Source: Candidatus Rokuibacteriota bacterium
Lineage (GTDB): Bacteria > Methylomirabilota > Methylomirabilia > Rokubacteriales > JACPHL01
Assembly: GCA_016188625.1 (NCBI GenBank)
Contig: JACPHL010000146.1
Location: 1 to 7,451 of the forward strand
Direction of reading: 5' to 3'
DNA: 7,451 bases
Shown: positions 1 to 7,451 of the stretch, in pieces
Position numbering within the stretch: position 1 is the stretch's first letter
Layout: each line of letters starts with the position of its first letter
Position numbers and translations under genes: made by a program
The notes under the pieces: model-generated
What the model was told of the DNA's origin: nothing
What the model saw: the letters and a program-made list of their open reading frames with translations, nothing else
The model's database searches: none

Positions 1-803
1 CCAAGCCCCCGCGGGTCCTTGGGGTCGAGGAAGAGGTTCTTCTTCCCCGCAAGGTCCCAGAGGGAGACGTGGAAGTGACTGCCGTTGCCGGTGAGCCGGG
101 CGAAGGGCTTGGGCATGTGGGTGGCGATGGCCCCGAAGCCCTGGGCCACCTGGTTCGTCATCATCTTGAAGAAGGTGTAACGATCCGCGGTGGTCAGGGC
201 GTCGGAGTACTTCCAGTTGATCTCGAACTGGGCGTTGGCGTCCTCGTGGTCGGAGGCGTAGGGTTCCCAGCCGAGCTGCTCCATGTAGCGGACGAGCGTC
301 CGGAGGTACCCCATGTTGGCGGCGAGGCTCTTGAAGTCGTAGCAGGGCTTCTCCATGGTGTCCACGCCGGCGGGATCGAAGGGGACGACGGTCCCGTCCG
401 GGAGCCGCCGCACCAGCATGTGCTCGGCCTCGACCCCGACGTTCATGATGTAGCCCTCGCGCCGGAGCTCGGCCAGGGCCCGCTTGAGCGCGGTCCGGGC
501 GCAGTAGGGCCACGGCTCGCCGTCCACGGTGATGTCGCAGGCGAAGCGGACCACCCCCTCCTCCCACGGGACCGGGGTGTAGGAGTCGAGGTCGGGGACG
601 GCGATCATGTCGTGGGAGTGCGGCCCCTGCCCCATCCCCCACACCGCCGCCCCGGCGAACCCCGCGCTCCCCTCGACGAAGAGGTCGAAGGCCCGGGCGG
701 GGACCCCCTTGCAGCGCGGGGTACCGTGGATGTCCACGTACTGGGCCAGGAGGTAGTCCACCTTCTCTTTTTTGAGCCGCTCGCGCACGGCCTCCTTGGT
801 CAT
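1..803 (-). CDS. Type III glutamine synthetase (GlnT/GmaS-like), 3' end outside window
   Basis: I translated this gene by hand: it reads open from ATG at 801-803 to the left edge, giving 267 residues with no stop. Family members are about 430-450 residues, so roughly 60% is present. Type III-like features are the N-terminal LLAQYVDIHG (18-27), AGFAGAAVWGMG (47-58), the catalytic metal-binding ExE of GVEAE (E125, E127), DHEDANAQFEIN (185-196) and the ATP-site segment GNGSHFHVS (239-247). Such enzymes ligate ammonia or methylamine to glutamate using ATP: GlnT makes glutamine and GmaS makes gamma-glutamylmethylamide. The sequence alone does not separate these for me. It lies 27 bases after soxB with a purine-rich ribosome binding site touching the ATG, so it is the last visible gene of the operon. 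Adjacency to Sox/Mgd-type subunits makes the methylamine-ligase role attractive, as an inference. The family call is firm; the substrate is not. Confidence 0.9.
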   Translation of the reverse strand, partial: MTKEAVRERLKKEKVDYLLAQYVDIHGTPRCKGVPARAFDLFVEGSAGFAGAAVWGMGQGPHSHDMIAVPDLDSYTPVPWEEGVVRFACDITVDGEPWPYCARTALKRALAELRREGYIMNVGVEAEHMLVRRLPDGTVVPFDPAGVDTMEKPCYDFKSLAANMGYLRTLVRYMEQLGWEPYASDHEDANAQFEINWKYSDALTTADRYTFFKMMTNQVAQGFGAIATHMPKPFARLTGNGSHFHVSLWDLAGKKNLFLDPKDPRGL

Positions 804-816
804 CTCCTCCTCCTCC
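804..816 (-). promoter_or_regulatory. Ribosome binding site of the glutamine synthetase gene
   Basis: On the minus strand four GGAG units run together (GGAGGAGGAGGAG) directly up to the ATG at 801-803. The upstream units lie at a suitable distance for 16S pairing, which supports this ATG as the start. Confidence 0.7.
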
Positions 817-830
817 GTCCCCGGCCGGCC

Positions 831-2042
831 TCAGTGCGACACCGCCGCGGCGGCCTTCTCGCCGACCAGGGTATCGTCGTAGAACCGCGTCAGGGAAAAC
901 GGCTTGATCAGCTCCGGGGTCCGGCCGGTCGCGATCAGCTCGGCGATCCGCTTCCCGGCGACCGGGCCGGCCTTGAACCCGTAGGTCCCCCACCCGACGT
1001 CGAGGATGAACCCCTTGAGCCCCGGGACCTCCCCCAGGATGGGGCTGTAGTCCGGGGTCATGTCGCAGATCCCCGCCCACTGCCGGAGCACCCGTACCCG
1101 GCGGAGGCAGGGGAAGAGCTCGAGGGTGTGGGCCGCGGTCGCCTCCAGGAACGGCAGGGTGGAGCGGGAGCTGTAGGAGCTGTAGGGGTCGATCTCCGAG
1201 CCGATCACCAGCTCCCCGCGGTCGGTCTGGCTCACGTAGACGTGCAGCGTCGCCGAGACGATCACCTTGTCGAGGAACGGCTTGAGCGGCTCGGTCACGA
1301 AGGCCTGGAGCGGGTGGGTGACGATGGGGAGGTGGAGCCCCACCATCTTCGCCACCGTGGAGCAGAAGCCGGCGGTCGCGTTGACGACCACCCCGGCCCT
1401 GATCTCCCCCCGGCTGGTGAGCACCGAGGTGACCTGGCCGTTGGAGGTCCCGATCCCCACCGCCTCGGTGAAGGGGTGGATCGCGATCCCCATCCGGTCC
1501 GCCCCGCGGGCGTAGGCCCAGACCACGGCGTCGTGACGGATGATCCCGCCCGGCGGGTGGTAGAGGGCGGCGAGCACCGGATAGCGCGGGCGCGGGGAGA
1601 GGTCCAGGGCGGGGACGAGCCGCTGGATCTCCTCGGGCCAGATGAGCCGGCTCTCCACGCCCATGAGCTGGTTGACCTCGGCCCGGACCCGGAGGCCGTT
1701 GATGGCGCTGTCGGTGTGGGCCAGGGTGAGGTGCCCCTGCTGGGAGAAGAGCAGGTTGTAGCCGAGGTCGGCCGCGAGCCGCTCGTAGAGCTTCACCGAC
1801 TCGTCGTAGAAGCTCACCCCCTCGGGGGTCCGGTAGTTGGAGCGGATGATCGCCGTGTTCCGCCCGCTCGCCCCGCTCCCGAGGTACGACTTCTCCAGCA
1901 CGCAGACGTCGCGGACCCCGGCCCGCCCGAGGTAGTACGCGGTCGCCAGGCCGTGGACCCCGCCCCCGATGATGACCACGTCGTAGCGATCCCTGAAGGG
2001 GCGCGGGCGCCACATCGGCGTCTTCCGGAAGAGCTGCCACAT
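831..2042 (-). CDS. soxB: Sarcosine oxidase beta-subunit-type FAD oxidoreductase (SoxB/MgdA family)
   Basis: This 403-residue protein matches the usual length of heterotetrameric sarcosine oxidase beta subunits. In that family the beta subunit holds the FAD where the N-methyl amine is oxidised, and carries a covalently bound FMN at the interface with alpha. Visible features are the Rossmann motif IIGGGVHG (24-31), the FAD-contacting stretch SGRNTAIIRSNYRT (59-72), and RHDAVVWAYARG (169-180), whose H170 corresponds to the FMN-linking histidine. Near the C-terminus are WAGICDMTPDYSPILG and GWGTYGFKAGP, the conserved substrate and flavin site. ATG at 2042 lies 6 bases after the soxG stop, and a GGAG in the last soxG codons can serve as ribosome binding site. 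The gene appears intact. The same fold is used by MgdA of N-methylglutamate dehydrogenase and by dimethylglycine-type enzymes, so the substrate is inferred rather than shown. Confidence 0.93.
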   Translation of the reverse strand: MWQLFRKTPMWRPRPFRDRYDVVIIGGGVHGLATAYYLGRAGVRDVCVLEKSYLGSGASGRNTAIIRSNYRTPEGVSFYDESVKLYERLAADLGYNLLFSQQGHLTLAHTDSAINGLRVRAEVNQLMGVESRLIWPEEIQRLVPALDLSPRPRYPVLAALYHPPGGIIRHDAVVWAYARGADRMGIAIHPFTEAVGIGTSNGQVTSVLTSRGEIRAGVVVNATAGFCSTVAKMVGLHLPIVTHPLQAFVTEPLKPFLDKVIVSATLHVYVSQTDRGELVIGSEIDPYSSYSSRSTLPFLEATAAHTLELFPCLRRVRVLRQWAGICDMTPDYSPILGEVPGLKGFILDVGWGTYGFKAGPVAGKRIAELIATGRTPELIKPFSLTRFYDDTLVGEKAAAAVSH

Positions 2043-2048
2043 CGCGGG

Positions 2049-2759
2049 CTACTCCGGGCCGAGGAGCGGCAGGGCGGCGGTCCCGACCGGACCGAGGCCG
2101 AGCTCGCGCCCGGCCTCGAGAACCGCCCCCCAGACGTACTCGGCGACGTCGCGGGCGACCAGGAGGAGATAGCCGGGGTGCGGGCCGGGATCGTGCCGGA
2201 CGACGATGGCGTGCACTTTAGCGAGTGGCGCCTGGGCCACGGCGAGGTTCGGGAACGCCTCCGGGGAGAGGTCGAGGGGCAGGAGCCTCGGCAGCAGCTC
2301 GGGCGCTCGAGGGCCGGCCACGCGGAGGGCGGCGAGCGCCGAGGTGAGGTCGGTGAGATGGGCGCAGGCCCCGGCCAGCCGGTCGGCCAGGCGCGCGGCG
2401 AGCCGGCGGGGGTCGCCCGGGGCGGTGAGGAGGAGCCACTCATCCGGGGCCAGCGGCAAGGCCAGGGCGGCGACTGGAGCCTCCCCATCGAGCCGGAGCC
2501 GCCGGGCCAGCCCGTTCAGCCTGCCGTTCCCCGAACCGCCGAGGAGGGCCGCCGCGTCGCGGCCGCGGAGGGCGAGCTTCCCGAGGGCGCTCGCATCGAG
2601 GAGCCCGATCCCCTCGCGCACCCTGGCGGCCTCCGCCTCGGGCGCGGTGTAGCTCCGGGGGATCCGCCAGCCGTCCGCCTCGGTCCAGACGACGCCGAGG
2701 GGTTCGTGGACCTCGTGGAGGGCCGAGCGCCGGATCGGGGTGAAGGTCGCCGCCTGCAT
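2049..2759 (-). CDS. soxG: Sarcosine oxidase gamma subunit (SoxG/MgdD family)
   Basis: A 236-residue GcvT-fold protein. I chose ATG at 2757-2759, 5 bases after the soxA stop, because it gives a family-like length; the frame stays open to an ATG at 2927, but that extension would lie inside soxA and reads as low-complexity sequence. Typical stretches are EGIGLLDASALGKLALRG (49-66), LTDLTSALAALRVAGP (135-150) and LDLSPEAFPNLAVA (162-175). Each has a counterpart in the C-terminal part of SoxA (IDVSTLGKLEVVG, VTSAYAAVNLAGP, LDLSPGAFPYMAV), as expected because gamma is structurally related to the aminomethyltransferase-like half of alpha. Gamma is a small structural subunit of the complex, with no catalytic motif of its own visible. 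No strong ribosome binding site precedes it, so translation is probably coupled to soxA, which is notable given that soxA is frame-broken. Confidence 0.88.
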   Translation of the reverse strand: MQAATFTPIRRSALHEVHEPLGVVWTEADGWRIPRSYTAPEAEAARVREGIGLLDASALGKLALRGRDAAALLGGSGNGRLNGLARRLRLDGEAPVAALALPLAPDEWLLLTAPGDPRRLAARLADRLAGACAHLTDLTSALAALRVAGPRAPELLPRLLPLDLSPEAFPNLAVAQAPLAKVHAIVVRHDPGPHPGYLLLVARDVAEYVWGAVLEAGRELGLGPVGTAALPLLGPE

Positions 2760-2764
2760 GGCCG

Positions 2765-5206
2765 CTAACTCTTGAGCCGGGCCCCGTCGGGGTCGTAGAA
2801 GGGGCGCACGACGACCCGGCCGCGAGTGAGCCGGCCCGCGCTCCGGATCCGGATCTCCACCCCCTCCTGCGCCAGCTCCGGCGGGATCCAGGCCATCCCG
2901 ATCCCCCTTCCCAGGGTCGGGCTCCACTTCGAGCTGGTCACCCGCCCGATCGGGCGGCCGTCCGCCACCACCGCGTCCCCCTCACCGGGGACCACGCCGT
3001 CGAGCAGCTCGAAGCCGACCAGCCGCTGGCGGAGGCCCCGGGCCCGGGCCGCCTCGAGGAGGCGCCGGCCGATGAAGTCGGGCTTGTCGAGCTTGACCGC
3101 CCAGGCCATGTCGGCCTCCAGCGGGTTCGACAGCGCGTCGGTGTCGTGGCCGGGGATGAGGTGGAGCTTCTCCAGGCGGAGGACCCGCTGGGCCTCGACC
3201 CCGAAGGGGCGGATCACGTGCTCCCGCCCGGCGTCGAGGAGGAGATCCCAGAGCCAGGCCCCGTACTCGGCGGGGGCGTGGATCTCGTAGCCGAGCTCCC
3301 CGACGAAGCCGATCCTGAGGAGCAGCGCGGGCACGCCCCCCACCAGCGCCTCCCGCACCGCCATGTACGGAAAGGCCCCGGGGGAGAGGTCGAGGTCGGT
3401 GAGCCTGGCCAGGACCTCGCGGCACTTCGGCCCAGCCAGGTTGACGGCCGCGTAGGCCGAGGTGACGTCGGCGACGTGGACGCAGCGCCCCGTCCCGGCC
3501 AGCCACCACTCGAGCCACTGCCCCACTGCCTCGAGGCTGCCGGTCCCGGTGGTGACAAAGAAGCGATCCTCGCCGAGCCGCGCGGTCGTCCCGTCGTCGA
3601 GGATGATCCCGGCGTCGTCGCACATGACCCGGTAGCGGATCCGCCCCACCGCGAGGTCGGCGACCCGGCCGGGGTGGATCCACTCGAGGAAGGCCGCCGC
3701 CTCCCGGCCCACGACCTCCAGCTTGCCGAGGGTGCTCACGTCGATGACCCCGACCGCCTCCCGGACCGCCCGGACCTCGGCCTCCACCGAGGTGTAGAGG
3801 AGCGGGCGCTTCCAGGCCCCCATGTCCATCCAGGTGGCGCCCAGGGCGGCGTGACGCGCGTGGAGCGGGGTGCGCCGGACCGGCTCGTGGTGCGGCCCCG
3901 CCAGGACGCCCAGGGGGACCGGCTGGACCGGCGGGCGGGCGGTGGTGGTCCCGGTCTCGGCCATCCCCCGCCCGGTGAGCCTCGCCGTCACCCCGATAGC
4001 CGGGAGGTGGCACATCTTCCCCTGGCAGGGGCCCATGGTCACCGTCGTGTAGCGCTTCAAGGTCTCGAGGTGATCGAACCCCTCCCGCACCGCATCGGCG
4101 AGATCCTTCTCGGTGACGTCCTCGCAGAGGCAGACGAAGCGCTTGCGGCCGACGGAGGGAACGCTCGTGAGCTGGCGGACCCGGAGCCCCCGGCGGAGCC
4201 GGGCCCGGTGGGCCTCGACCTCGGCGCGGAGCGTTGCCATCCGCGAGGCCTCCCCGCCGCCCAGTCCGAGGGCGGACGCCGCCTCGAGCCCGGCCAGCCT
4301 GCCGCCCAGGAGGGCGAACCCGAGGTCCGAGAGGCCCGTGACCGCGCCGGCCGCGTGGACCGAGGAGGCCAGGGCCTGCGGGACCACGGCGTCCAGGGCC
4401 GGGTCGTAGCCGAGCCGGCCGTCGGCCTGGGCCAGGAGGGCGCCGGCCGGCTCCGGGGTCGTCGAGACCGCGATGAGGTCGCAGGCGATCAGGCGCTCGC
4501 TCCCCGCGACGGGATCCCCACCCGCATCGAGGCGGACGAGGAGCGCGCCCTCGACGTGGCGGCGCCCGCGGGCGTCGTGGATGGTCGCTCCCGCGAAGCA
4601 CTTCACGCCGGCCGCGGCCAGGGCCTCGGCGGCCGGCGGTAGCTCGGGCCGGGCCTCGGCCACCGCGGCGACCTCCACCCCGACGGCCAGGAGGTCCTGC
4701 GCCACCGCCCAGCCGTGATCGGCGTTGGTCACCACGACCGCGGCCCGGCCGGGGCGGACGCCGTCGAGGGTGATCAGGCGCTGGAGCCCGGTCCCGAGGA
4801 AGACCCCGGGGAGGTCGTTCCCCTGGAAGACCAGGGGGTGCTCGAACGCACCGGTGGCCACGATGAGCTGTCGCGGTCGGACGCGGTAGAGCCGGCGGCC
4901 CTGCATCACCCCGAGGAGCAGCCCCTCGTAGACCCCGAAGGCGGTGGCGGTCTGGAGGCGCTGGATCCTTGGCTCGCCCTCGACCTCGGCCGCGAGGCGG
5001 CGGGCGGCCTCCCAGCCCGCGAGGCCGGCGAGCCCGCCGGGACCGTCCACCCGGCCGAGGCGGGTCCTCAGCGCCCCGCCGAGGAGTGGCTGGTCATCCA
5101 CGAGCAGGACCGACGCGCCGAGGCGCGCTGGACGGTCTCGCCGCGCGCCCCGGGAGTCCGCTCGAGGTCCAGCTCCCCGAGCCCCGCCAGGTGGCGGAGG
5201 ACCCAT
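2765..5206 (-). pseudogene. soxA: Sarcosine oxidase alpha subunit, large 3' fragment of a frame-broken soxA
   Basis: This open frame (813 residues from an ATG at 5206) carries most of SoxA. Its first 28 residues are low-complexity out-of-frame sequence; homology begins at LGASVLLVDDQPLLGG (29-44), the second strand of a Rossmann fold whose leading GxGxxG is missing. Then come VATGAFEHP (116-124), LPGVFLGTGLQRLI (132-145) and VHAAGAVTGLSDLGFALLGG (283-302). A BFD-like [2Fe-2S] site follows with C359, C361, C394 and C399 (CxC, 32 residues, Cx4C). The remainder, from about 455 to the end, is a GcvT/aminomethyltransferase-like folate domain with GFVGELGYEIHAP (633-645) and LEKLHLIPGHDTDALSNPLE (678-697). 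In this family alpha binds NAD, shapes the FMN interface and transfers the methyl-derived carbon to tetrahydrofolate. The ATG at 5206 has no ribosome binding site and is unlikely to be a real start. It could be a decayed gene or an assembly or sequencing deletion. Confidence 0.85.
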
Positions 5207-5619
5207 TCATAGGCCGGCCAGAGCCGCCGGGGATGGATGAACGTCTTGTAGTAGAAGCCGACCGGGAGGAGGCGATCGAACTTGTCGATGACGGAGAACA
5301 GGTCGCGCTCGAGGGTGGGCCAGGCGTTCTGGTGGCGGACCCGCATCCCGTCCCGGACCGGCTCGACGCAGGTGCGGACGCTCGGGGTGCCGTCCACGTT
5401 CATCAGGCAGTTAGGGCAGCGCCCGGCGCAGCAGAGGAGGCCGCGGGGGCGGTGGTACTTGAAGCCGCGGCTGAAGATCCTGATCCCGGCCGCGTAGAGG
5501 GCCGCCGCCACGCTCTCGCCCTCGCAGGCGGGGATCGGCCGCCCCTCGAAGTCGATCGTGACCCGCCGGGCGCGATCGACGAGCTGGGCGGGATGGGCCG
5601 GGAGCCGGGGGTCGCTCAC
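5068..5619 (-). pseudogene. soxA: Sarcosine oxidase alpha subunit, N-terminal [2Fe-2S] fragment of frame-broken soxA
   Basis: This is the true 5' end of soxA, starting at GTG (5617-5619) behind an AAGGTGG ribosome binding site and stopping at 5068 after 183 codons. Residues 1 to about 150 look like the ferredoxin-like Fer2_4 domain that opens SoxA proteins: VTIDFEGRPIPACEGESVAA (20-39), FSRGFKYHRPRGLLCCAGRC (49-68), then QNAWPTLERDLFSVIDKF and FYYKTFIHPRRLWPAYEWVL. C63, C68, C71 and C84 form Cx4Cx2Cx12C, the spacing of plant-type [2Fe-2S] domains in HcnA-like and opine-oxidase-like dehydrogenases. Past about residue 155 the frame reads as unrelated sequence (GETVQRASARRSCSW) and stops, while the neighbouring frame takes up SoxA homology. 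From 5619 to 2765 is 2855 bases (about 951 codons, not a multiple of three), against roughly 965-1000 residues for intact SoxA. As it stands the fragment would lack the FAD/NAD and folate domains. Confidence 0.85.
5120..5160 (-). other. Deletion/frameshift junction inside soxA
   Basis: The N-terminal frame loses SoxA character near 5160-5125 and the C-terminal frame gains it at 5122. The linker and first strand-loop-helix of the Rossmann domain, including the expected GGGPAG motif, are not encoded in any of the three minus-strand frames here. A net loss of about 30-40 codons with a length of 1 modulo 3 fits. The inverted repeat GGCGCGC (5143-5149) / GCGCGCC (5122-5128) sits exactly at the junction. 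Confidence 0.75.
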
Positions 5620-5623
5620 TGGT

Positions 5624-5630
5624 CCACCTT
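5624..5630 (-). promoter_or_regulatory. Ribosome binding site of soxA
   Basis: The minus strand reads AAGGTGG, 4 bases before the GTG start at 5617-5619. It decides the soxA start and is partly covered by the 3' arm of the hairpin at 5628-5660. Confidence 0.65.
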
Positions 5631-5660
5631 GGGGGGGAGCGGCGTCGCTCCTCCCCCAAG
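5628..5660 (-). promoter_or_regulatory. Strong GC hairpin between soxD and soxA overlapping the soxA ribosome binding site
   Basis: On the minus strand CTTGGGGGAGGAGCG (5660-5646) can pair with CGCTCCCCCCCAAG (5641-5628), giving 14 base pairs with one bulged A and a 4-base loop (ACGC). The 3' arm ends in CCCAAG, so the A-A-G of the soxA ribosome binding site would be paired. There is no following T-run, so it does not look like an intrinsic terminator. It may limit soxA translation or stabilise an mRNA end; the role is inferred. The rest of the 94-base gap (5620-5713) holds only GC-rich sequence with no gene I can see. Confidence 0.55.
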
Positions 5661-5713
5661 CCCCCCCACCGCCCGGGGCCGCAGTGGGGTGGCGACAGGG
5701 AGAGGCGGGTGGC

Positions 5714-5986
5714 TCATCCGGCGCCCTCCGGCTTGTCCTCGGGCCAGAAGGCCTCCAGCACCGCGTTGGTCCGGGTGTCGCGGACGGCGAGGAACCAGCG
5801 CCGGCACCCCTGCCGGTGGTACCACCACTCCTTGGCGGGCCCGGCGACGTTCCGGCGGGCGTAGAGGTAGTCCGCCCACTCCTGGTCGGAGACCGTGGGC
5901 GGCGGCCGCCGCTGGAACTCCCCGCCGTAGCGGAACTCGTAGACGTCGCGCGGCCCGCAGTGGGGGCAGGGCACCAGGAACGACAT
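5714..5986 (-). CDS. soxD: Sarcosine oxidase delta subunit (SoxD/MgdB family)
   Basis: A 90-residue protein, close to the usual 85-110 residues for delta. Delta is the small zinc-binding subunit that packs against alpha in the heterotetramer. It opens with FLVPCPHCGPRDVYEFRYGG (3-22), the family signature. C7 and C10 (CPHC) with H57 and C61 (HRQGC) supply the four zinc ligands known from the crystal structures of the complex. WADYLYARRNVAGPAKEWWY (37-56) is also characteristic. The ATG at 5984-5986 is preceded by GGAG with a 6-base spacer, and the gene begins 32 bases after the creatininase-family stop. It comes first among the sox genes here, whereas soxB usually leads. The gene is intact, and its identity is secure despite the small size because the zinc set and core motifs all agree. 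Confidence 0.93.
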   Translation of the reverse strand: MSFLVPCPHCGPRDVYEFRYGGEFQRRPPPTVSDQEWADYLYARRNVAGPAKEWWYHRQGCRRWFLAVRDTRTNAVLEAFWPEDKPEGAG

Positions 5987-6018: not shown

Positions 6019-6810
6019 TCACCGTGGCGGCTGGCTGTAGTAGTCGGTGAACTCGCCGCGTTGCAGCTTGCCCGCATAATGGCTGACCCGGTCCACGATT
6101 GCGGCGAAGAAGGCCTTCCCGGCCGCGGCGCTGGCGTGCTCCGGGTGCCCGATGATCCCCGAGTGCCGGTCGGGCCCGATCCAGGCCCGCCACAGCAGCA
6201 CGGGGGGCTGATGGTCGCCGAGATCCCACCCCGCCGGGAGGCGGTTGGCGGCCCGGATCGCCTCGAGGTTCACCCGCTCCGGCCGGAGGTGGAGTTGCAG
6301 GGACGTCTCGAGCTCGCAGGCGTGGGCCATTCCGCCCCGATCGGATTTCCGGAGACGATTGATCTCATCACGGGCGATCTCCCAATAGGAGCCGGTGGCC
6401 AGGACGAGATCCGGGATCTCCGAGTGGAAGCGGTCCATGGTGCTCCGGGCCACCGTTTCCATGATCGAGTAGTTGTGGCGGTGACCGTTCAACATGAAGA
6501 GCTTCCGAAGGCCGGTCCGGATCAGCGATTCGAGGATATCGGACAGCACACGATCCAGGGTGTCGGCCTTGAGCGTGAGGGTGCCGGGATAATGCGTCCA
6601 GGTGGAGGAGTAGCCGTACGAGACCGTCGGGGCCACCAAGGCCCCGGCCTGCTCCCCCACGGCCACGGCGATCTCCCCCACGGTGTGCGCGTCCACGTCG
6701 AGGGGCAGCCCGGGGCCGTGGGCCTCGACGGTGCCGATGGGAATGATCACCACCGGGTTGGCCTTCACGGCCTCCTCCACTTCAGGCCACGAGAGGTCTG
6801 CGAGTCTCAC
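6019..6810 (-). CDS. Creatininase-family metal-dependent amidohydrolase
   Basis: A 263-residue protein, within the 240-270 usual for creatininase-family hydrolases, which use two divalent metals to open cyclic or linear amide bonds. Metal ligands visible are E29 and H31 in IPIGTVEAHGPGLPLDVDAH (23-42), D40, H110 in MLNGHRHN (106-113), and E166 in MAHACELETS (161-170, the family HAGExETS). Where creatininase has H-x-E after the asparagine-glycine pair, this protein has H110-R-H112, so one site may be coordinated differently. The start is GTG at 6808-6810, overlapping the livF stop as GTGA, with AAGGAGGTG upstream. Creatininase itself turns creatinine into creatine, a precursor of sarcosine, which would suit the sox genes, but no creatinase is present in the window and family members act on many substrates. 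The substrate is therefore open. The protein is probably cytoplasmic; no signal peptide is visible. Confidence 0.88.
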   Translation of the reverse strand: MRLADLSWPEVEEAVKANPVVIIPIGTVEAHGPGLPLDVDAHTVGEIAVAVGEQAGALVAPTVSYGYSSTWTHYPGTLTLKADTLDRVLSDILESLIRTGLRKLFMLNGHRHNYSIMETVARSTMDRFHSEIPDLVLATGSYWEIARDEINRLRKSDRGGMAHACELETSLQLHLRPERVNLEAIRAANRLPAGWDLGDHQPPVLLWRAWIGPDRHSGIIGHPEHASAAAGKAFFAAIVDRVSHYAGKLQRGEFTDYYSQPPR

Positions 6811-7451
6811 GACGGCACCTCCTTGCGGACGGCTCGGTCCACCGACGCGCGCCTGGCCCCGAGATAGGCGCCCAGGACTTTCGGATCGTCGAGCAGGTCC
6901 GCCGCGCGACCTTCCCGGACGATCTTGCCGTGCTCCAGGACATAGGCCCGGTCCGCGACCCCCAGGGCGAGACGGGCCATCTGCTCCACGACGAGCGTGG
7001 TCACGCCCTGCCGCCTCAAATCCTCGATCACCCCGAAGATCTCCCGCACAAGGAGCGGAGCGAGGCCCAGAGAAGGCTCGTCCATGAGGAGCAGTCGGGG
7101 GCGGGACATGAGTCCGCGGGCGATGGCCAGCATCTGCTGCTCGCCTCCCGAGAGGGTCCCCGCCAGCTGCCGCCGACGCTCCCGGAGTCGCGGGAAGAGG
7201 CTCACGCAGCGATCGAGATCCTCGCCCGCTTCCCCTGGCCTCCGGCTGTACGCTCCGAGGAGCAGGTTCTCATGGACGGTCAGATGCCCGAAGACTTGCC
7301 GGCCTTCGGGCACGAGGGAGAGGCCGCGCGCCACCACCTCGTAGGCCTCCCGGTTGGCGATGTCCCGTCCTTCGAACATGATCGTGCCCCTTTGGACCCT
7401 GAGGAGACCCGCGATCGCCTTCATCAGGGTGGTCTTCCCTGCCCCGTTCGA
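6807..7451 (-). CDS. livF: Branched-chain amino-acid ABC transporter ATPase (LivF family), 5' end outside window
   Basis: The frame runs open off the right edge, giving 214 residues; about 30-40 N-terminal residues are missing. It begins within Walker A (SNGAGKTTLMKAIAGLL). It continues with PEGRQVFGHLTVHENLLLGA (Q-loop side, LivF-like), the ABC signature LSGGEQQMLAIARGL, Walker B and D-loop RLLLMDEPSLGLAPLLV, then VTTLVVEQMARLALGVADRA and VLEHGKIVREGRAADLL near the end. EGRQVF and the VVEQ ending of the switch region point to LivF of the HAAT uptake class rather than LivG. The protein would power import of amino acids or related amine or amide solutes with LivG, LivH, LivM and a binding protein, which should lie to the right. 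Its stop overlaps the next start by four bases (GTGA), so transporter and catabolic genes are translationally coupled. Confidence 0.93.
   Translation of the reverse strand, partial: SNGAGKTTLMKAIAGLLRVQRGTIMFEGRDIANREAYEVVARGLSLVPEGRQVFGHLTVHENLLLGAYSRRPGEAGEDLDRCVSLFPRLRERRRQLAGTLSGGEQQMLAIARGLMSRPRLLLMDEPSLGLAPLLVREIFGVIEDLRRQGVTTLVVEQMARLALGVADRAYVLEHGKIVREGRAADLLDDPKVLGAYLGARRASVDRAVRKEVPS
6816..6824 (-). promoter_or_regulatory. Strong ribosome binding site of the creatininase-family gene, inside livF
   Basis: The minus strand reads AAGGAGGTG, nearly a perfect anti-16S match, 5 bases before the GTG start at 6808-6810. It also encodes Lys-Glu-Val near the livF C-terminus. It fixes the GTG start and shows that the overlap is functional. 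Confidence 0.8.

Follow-up and report, generated by a model that had tools for sequence, protein, structure and literature searches.

Methylamine is a common source of nitrogen and C1 units in soil and in the sea. In the N-methylglutamate (NMG) pathway of methylotrophic Proteobacteria, for which the plasmid cluster of Acidithiobacillus caldus serves here as a stand-in, the genes are arranged in the order soxBDAG-gmaS-mgsABC, and purU and folD adjoin them. The synthetase of this pathway, GmaS, differs from glutamine synthetase (GS) in that Asp50' is replaced by Ala48 and the Glu-flap Glu by Trp300, with Asp177, Glu186 and Arg312 as catalytic residues (PMC7948447). In Rhizobium, glnT lies near dimethylamine monooxygenase genes. 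The NMG pathway has been reported in a few Binatota genomes, and the same study mentions methylamine oxidation signatures in Rokubacteria and Chloroflexi in general terms only (PMC8262859). The multimeric sarcosine oxidase of SAR202 has been read as an element of choline degradation (PMC5395668). A limited literature search, which is weak evidence, returned no relevant report of an iron-sulfur methylglutamate dehydrogenase and no paper that treats SAR202 and N-methylglutamate together.

The window analysed here comprises all 7451 b of contig C283, from a fragmented MAG (2.6 Mb, 344 contigs, 84% completeness), and the record holds nothing to the left of base 1. With a probability of roughly 82%, judged from sequence, the window covers the downstream half of an operon for the NMG pathway in a Rokubacteriota bacterium. 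All of its genes lie on the minus strand with short gaps between them, in the order livF, creatininase-like gene, soxD, soxA, soxG, soxB and type III synthetase. The livF-type ABC transporter ATPase gene (6807..7451) is cut at its 5' end by the contig end, and its best NCBIfam matches, LivF (1.7e-63) and UrtE (4.6e-55), are both below the cut-off; the gene for a creatininase-family amidohydrolase follows (6019..6810; PF02633, 3.7e-62). Profile matches to all four subunits indicate that a SoxBDAG-type heterotetramer is encoded, comprising a soxD/mgdB-like delta subunit (5714..5986; PF04267, 5.7e-31), a soxA/mgdC-like alpha subunit (2765..5619), a soxG/mgdD-like gamma subunit (2049..2759; PF04268, 1.9e-5; PF01571, 6.3e-28) and a soxB/mgdA-like beta subunit (831..2042; TIGR01373, 1.7e-132), the last also recognized by its alignment to 2gag_B. 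The first-pass annotation had described a D-A-G-B order with a type III synthetase directly after it, and the gene calls and profile matches bear this out; its view of the order as "rotated" has to be given up, because members of this clade normally have D-A-G-B.

The genes that would complete the pathway were found both in relatives and in the genome of the window. Two genomes, G003 and G030, as well as five Chloroflexota loci carry mgsA-mgsB-mgsC immediately ahead of soxD-A-G-B-gmaS, and in G003 and G030 all eight genes (gmaS, mgsABC and mgdABCD) stand together. The order is mgsABC-soxDAGB-gmaS, in contrast to that of A. caldus, whereas the gene set, the GmaS residues and the domain architecture are alike. 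In the window's own genome, a split mgsB-mgsC is located on contig C142; after it come a PuuE-like deacetylase-family gene, livK and, interrupted by the end of the contig, the first part of livH. Given that livF is the first gene of the window, C142 and C283 may adjoin each other across about 2-3 kb of absent liv genes; C142 would most likely lie on the upstream, right-hand side of the window. Every NMG pathway gene except mgsA was seen in this genome; C142 starts inside the cluster, and mgsA has probably been cut off there. Contig C339 opens with the last 45 residues of a GmaS-type protein, and because the genome contains no other synthetase of this type, C339 probably continues the window. 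Its direct junction with the left end of the window is likely, but a gap of roughly 0.4 kb would remain. Both joins (C142-C283 and C283-C339) are deduced from broken genes and homology. The first-pass annotation had expected the genes to the left to decide the pathway; an mgs module does exist, adjoining soxD in relatives, but to the left of the window probably lies the gmaS C-terminus on C339. A search for one-carbon genes, proposed at the same time, found FolD in the genome; purU and folD adjoin the NMG genes in A. caldus, whereas neither is adjacent here.

The synthetase gene encodes the first 267 aa of the protein (3..803; TIGR03105, 6.3e-96), the remainder being lost at the contig end, and its key residues and position in trees identify the product as a predicted gamma-glutamylmethylamide synthetase. 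With residue numbering and roles taken from the study of RhGmaS (PMC7948447), 15 of the 16 key positions that can be read carry the RhGmaS residue. These include the pocket residues Lys30, Glu179 and Asn188, the catalytic Asp177 and Glu186, and Ala48, which stands in place of the ammonium-binding Asp50' of GS. Tyr147 of the pocket is likewise shared with RhGmaS (7cql) and 9qur, both of which have lost Asp50'. Arg312 and the Trp that replaces the Glu-flap Glu lie past the window's cut and are found in intact relatives. The sole mismatch is Gln175 of the amine pocket, which is Ala in the window, in all Rokubacteriota and in most D-A-G-B Chloroflexota copies of GmaS. The amine may therefore not be methylamine; the pocket could be wider, or the substrate a different amine. 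When the intact G003 homologue (L014) was compared with PDB chains using phmmer, 9qur, a "Glutamate--methylamine ligase" (1.6e-126), and RhGmaS 7cql (1.3e-105) outranked every ammonia-using GS. The tree of GmaS and GlnT proteins that the first-pass annotation had called for, built without the genome's two other GS copies, which have very long branches, gave the same picture: the window synthetase clusters with 7cql, 9qur and plasmid GlnT, with other Rokubacteriota as its nearest neighbours, and the ammonia-type GS outgroups are separate.

The modules of the NMG pathway also co-occur across the 59 genomes of the order. GmaS, a stand-alone MgsB and a strong SoxA A3 domain are found in the same seven of the 59, and the chance of two genes sharing 7/59 genomes is about 3e-9 by simple counting, a figure that kinship makes too small. 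The soxDAGB set is kept together with gmaS and mgsB in six of the 58 relatives. Taken together with the mgs module, GmaS and FolD, these data support the earlier suggestion of an N-methylglutamate pathway, with a substrate predicted from gene content.

It should be noted that the alpha subunit, and not the gene order, is what appears from its sequence to distinguish this NMG system. The window soxA encodes Fer2_4 (1e-30), a damaged Rossmann domain, a BFD/A3 domain, GCV_T and GCV_T_C, and it carries eight of eight cluster-type cysteines. Four belong to an N-terminal ferredoxin-like domain with the motif C-x4-C-x2-C-x12-C (5368..5433, minus strand, located by alignment with relatives) and four to a BFD-like domain with C-x-C and C-x4-C (approximately 4000..4140, minus strand; Fer2_BFD, PF04324, 1.6e-9); they would bind two [2Fe-2S] clusters. 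All eight are present in every complete alpha subunit aligned from Rokubacteriota, Chloroflexota/SAR202, Latescibacterota and Verrucomicrobiota. In contrast, none is present in A. caldus and Acinetobacter, the plasmids of which also carry gmaS, and all eight are replaced in Rhizobium, Neorhizobium, Paracoccus, Ruegeria, Azospirillum, a planctomycete and a proteobacterium. Six positions could be read in a cyanobacterial alpha subunit and seven in that of sarcosine oxidase 1vrq, with none kept in either. Correspondingly, Pfam detects the domain Fer2_BFD in L014, L041 and the window, with no match in L119 and L156. The cysteine-bearing proteins form one clade (SH-aLRT 100), and the cysteine state changes once on the tree. 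The classical alpha subunits keep the domain without the cysteines, which suggests a loss in their lineage, on a tree that is insufficiently rooted for proof. Thus, the window alpha is not of the cysteine-free type of gmaS-bearing Proteobacterial loci, and the window dehydrogenase is predicted to be a variant rather than a typical MgdABCD member. The alpha subunit of two-cluster type described in the first-pass annotation is thereby confirmed at the level of sequence, but the window soxA is not one open frame.

Alignment with five relatives indicates that the window soxA is short by a net 64 nt near 5120 (approximately 5105..5165, minus strand), so that the reading frame shifts and the FAD domain no longer has its GxGxxG. 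This would be expected if soxA were a pseudogene in a decaying cluster and the pathway were non-functional in this organism. However, the remainder of the gene keeps all of its domains and the eight cysteines, its divergence is not unusual, and in the SoxA tree, measured against the GS tree, its branch does not clearly exceed those of intact relatives in length. In addition, the MAG is fragmented, and the SoxA frame is also broken in the relative G034, as expected of assembly errors. The missing 64 nt or so may thus be an error of this kind, and gene decay is considered unlikely. The opposite strand of the GC-rich window contains an open frame of 921 codons, and therefore the length of a frame carries no weight as evidence in this case.

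Two other readings would leave the cluster intact and assign it to a different metabolism. The four subunits could form a sarcosine oxidase that belongs to a creatinine-creatine-sarcosine route supplied by the neighbouring creatininase: the creatininase-family gene is directly upstream, SoxBDAG is named for sarcosine, and His173 and His270 of the TSOX beta subunit are conserved in the window soxB. Compared with heterotetrameric sarcosine oxidase (1vrq, 2gag), the beta subunit is indeed homologous from end to end and keeps the FMN histidine (TSOX beta-His173), and the alpha subunit, with its folate domain, is homologous as well; nevertheless, the alpha subunit of that enzyme is without cluster cysteines, and its gene neighbours differ. 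Moreover, the creatininase-like protein reaches only 140 bits against the TIGR04448 equivalog cut-off of 235, His takes the place of the Glu by which true creatininases complete their NGHxEN motif, and the domain search of the genome found no Creatinase_N domain. The creatinine route was therefore rejected. Since, in addition, none of the 58 order-level relatives searched has the creatininase-like gene and six keep soxDAGB with gmaS and mgsB, the sarcosine route is highly improbable. The synthetase, in turn, could be an ordinary ammonia-using GSIII (GlnT), which would dedicate the cluster to nitrogen assimilation or to an N-methyl amino acid other than methylglutamate. NCBIfam labels the intact relatives "type III glutamate--ammonia ligase" above the cut-off, the Ala at position 175 is as in the GS outgroup 8oow, and in G035 urease genes follow gmaS. 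This is very unlikely in view of the loss of Asp50' and, in intact relatives, of the Glu-flap Glu, of nearest solved structures that are methylamine ligases, and of the presence of mgsB and soxA in each of the seven genomes with gmaS.

In the NMG pathway proposed for the window, GmaS would convert methylamine, glutamate and ATP to gamma-glutamylmethylamide, and MgsABC, encoded on another contig, would transfer the methylamine onto 2-oxoglutarate to yield N-methylglutamate. The SoxBDAG-like heterotetramer would act as N-methylglutamate dehydrogenase, operating in the oxidative direction: oxidation of the N-methyl group would yield methylene-tetrahydrofolate or formaldehyde and regenerate glutamate, setting free the nitrogen and a C1 unit. 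The two predicted [2Fe-2S] clusters would receive electrons from the flavins and hand them on to a respiratory acceptor in place of O2. As a guess, the creatininase-like enzyme, the PuuE-like enzyme and the liv transporter might import an N-methyl amide and release methylamine; an Amt (methylamine/ammonium) transporter was not found in the 84%-complete genome.

The NMG pathway itself is known, and what appears to be new is the iron-sulfur type of dehydrogenase, with a function predicted from sequence. The full gene set in both Rokubacteriota and SAR202-type Chloroflexota would widen the range of the pathway to uncultured groups of high abundance. It also corrects the habitual annotation, in which such genes are labelled sarcosine oxidase and glutamine synthetase, and the cysteine-bearing alpha subunit represents a clear, testable difference in enzyme chemistry. 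A more tentative generalization, to which slightly less than even odds are given, is that a large uncultured clade (Rokubacteriota, Chloroflexota/SAR202, some Latescibacterota and Verrucomicrobiota) possesses an NMG dehydrogenase with two [2Fe-2S] clusters in the alpha subunit, which passes flavin electrons to a quinone or a soluble carrier and not to O2. If this were true, methylamine oxidation would be wired to respiration in a manner undescribed for known MgdABCD. Loci of SAR202 and of other Chloroflexota share the soxDAGB set that was assigned to choline degradation (PMC5395668), whereas in the loci studied here it is accompanied by gmaS and usually mgsABC; the SAR202 "sarcosine oxidase" might then largely be methylglutamate dehydrogenase.

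Several further genes were observed around gmaS. On C339, a gamma-glutamyltransferase gene (L018:145-1782) begins about 6 nt past the gmaS stop codon, and its product might cleave gamma-glutamylmethylamide, undoing or regulating the first step. In G019, a short MetE-like methionine synthase gene (L012:9995-11017) follows gmaS, making a link to C1 transfer possible. In G035 (L036, L017), the genes upstream of mgsA encode a UrtE-type ATPase, an aliphatic amidase, a GcvH-like protein and a CDC48-like ATPase, and the urease genes stand on a different contig from mgsA. The shared theme of the accessory genes could, as a guess, be the import and hydrolysis of amides that feed methylamine to the pathway. 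In sulfate-reducing Desulfobacterota (L089-L098, L116), gmaS occurs with mgsA and mgsC, and in most of these loci mgsB and sox genes were not detected nearby. Lastly, a PuuR-like XRE regulator recurs next to gmaS clusters in several phyla (L041, L044, L070, L071, L076, L087, L088, L097, L100 and L106).
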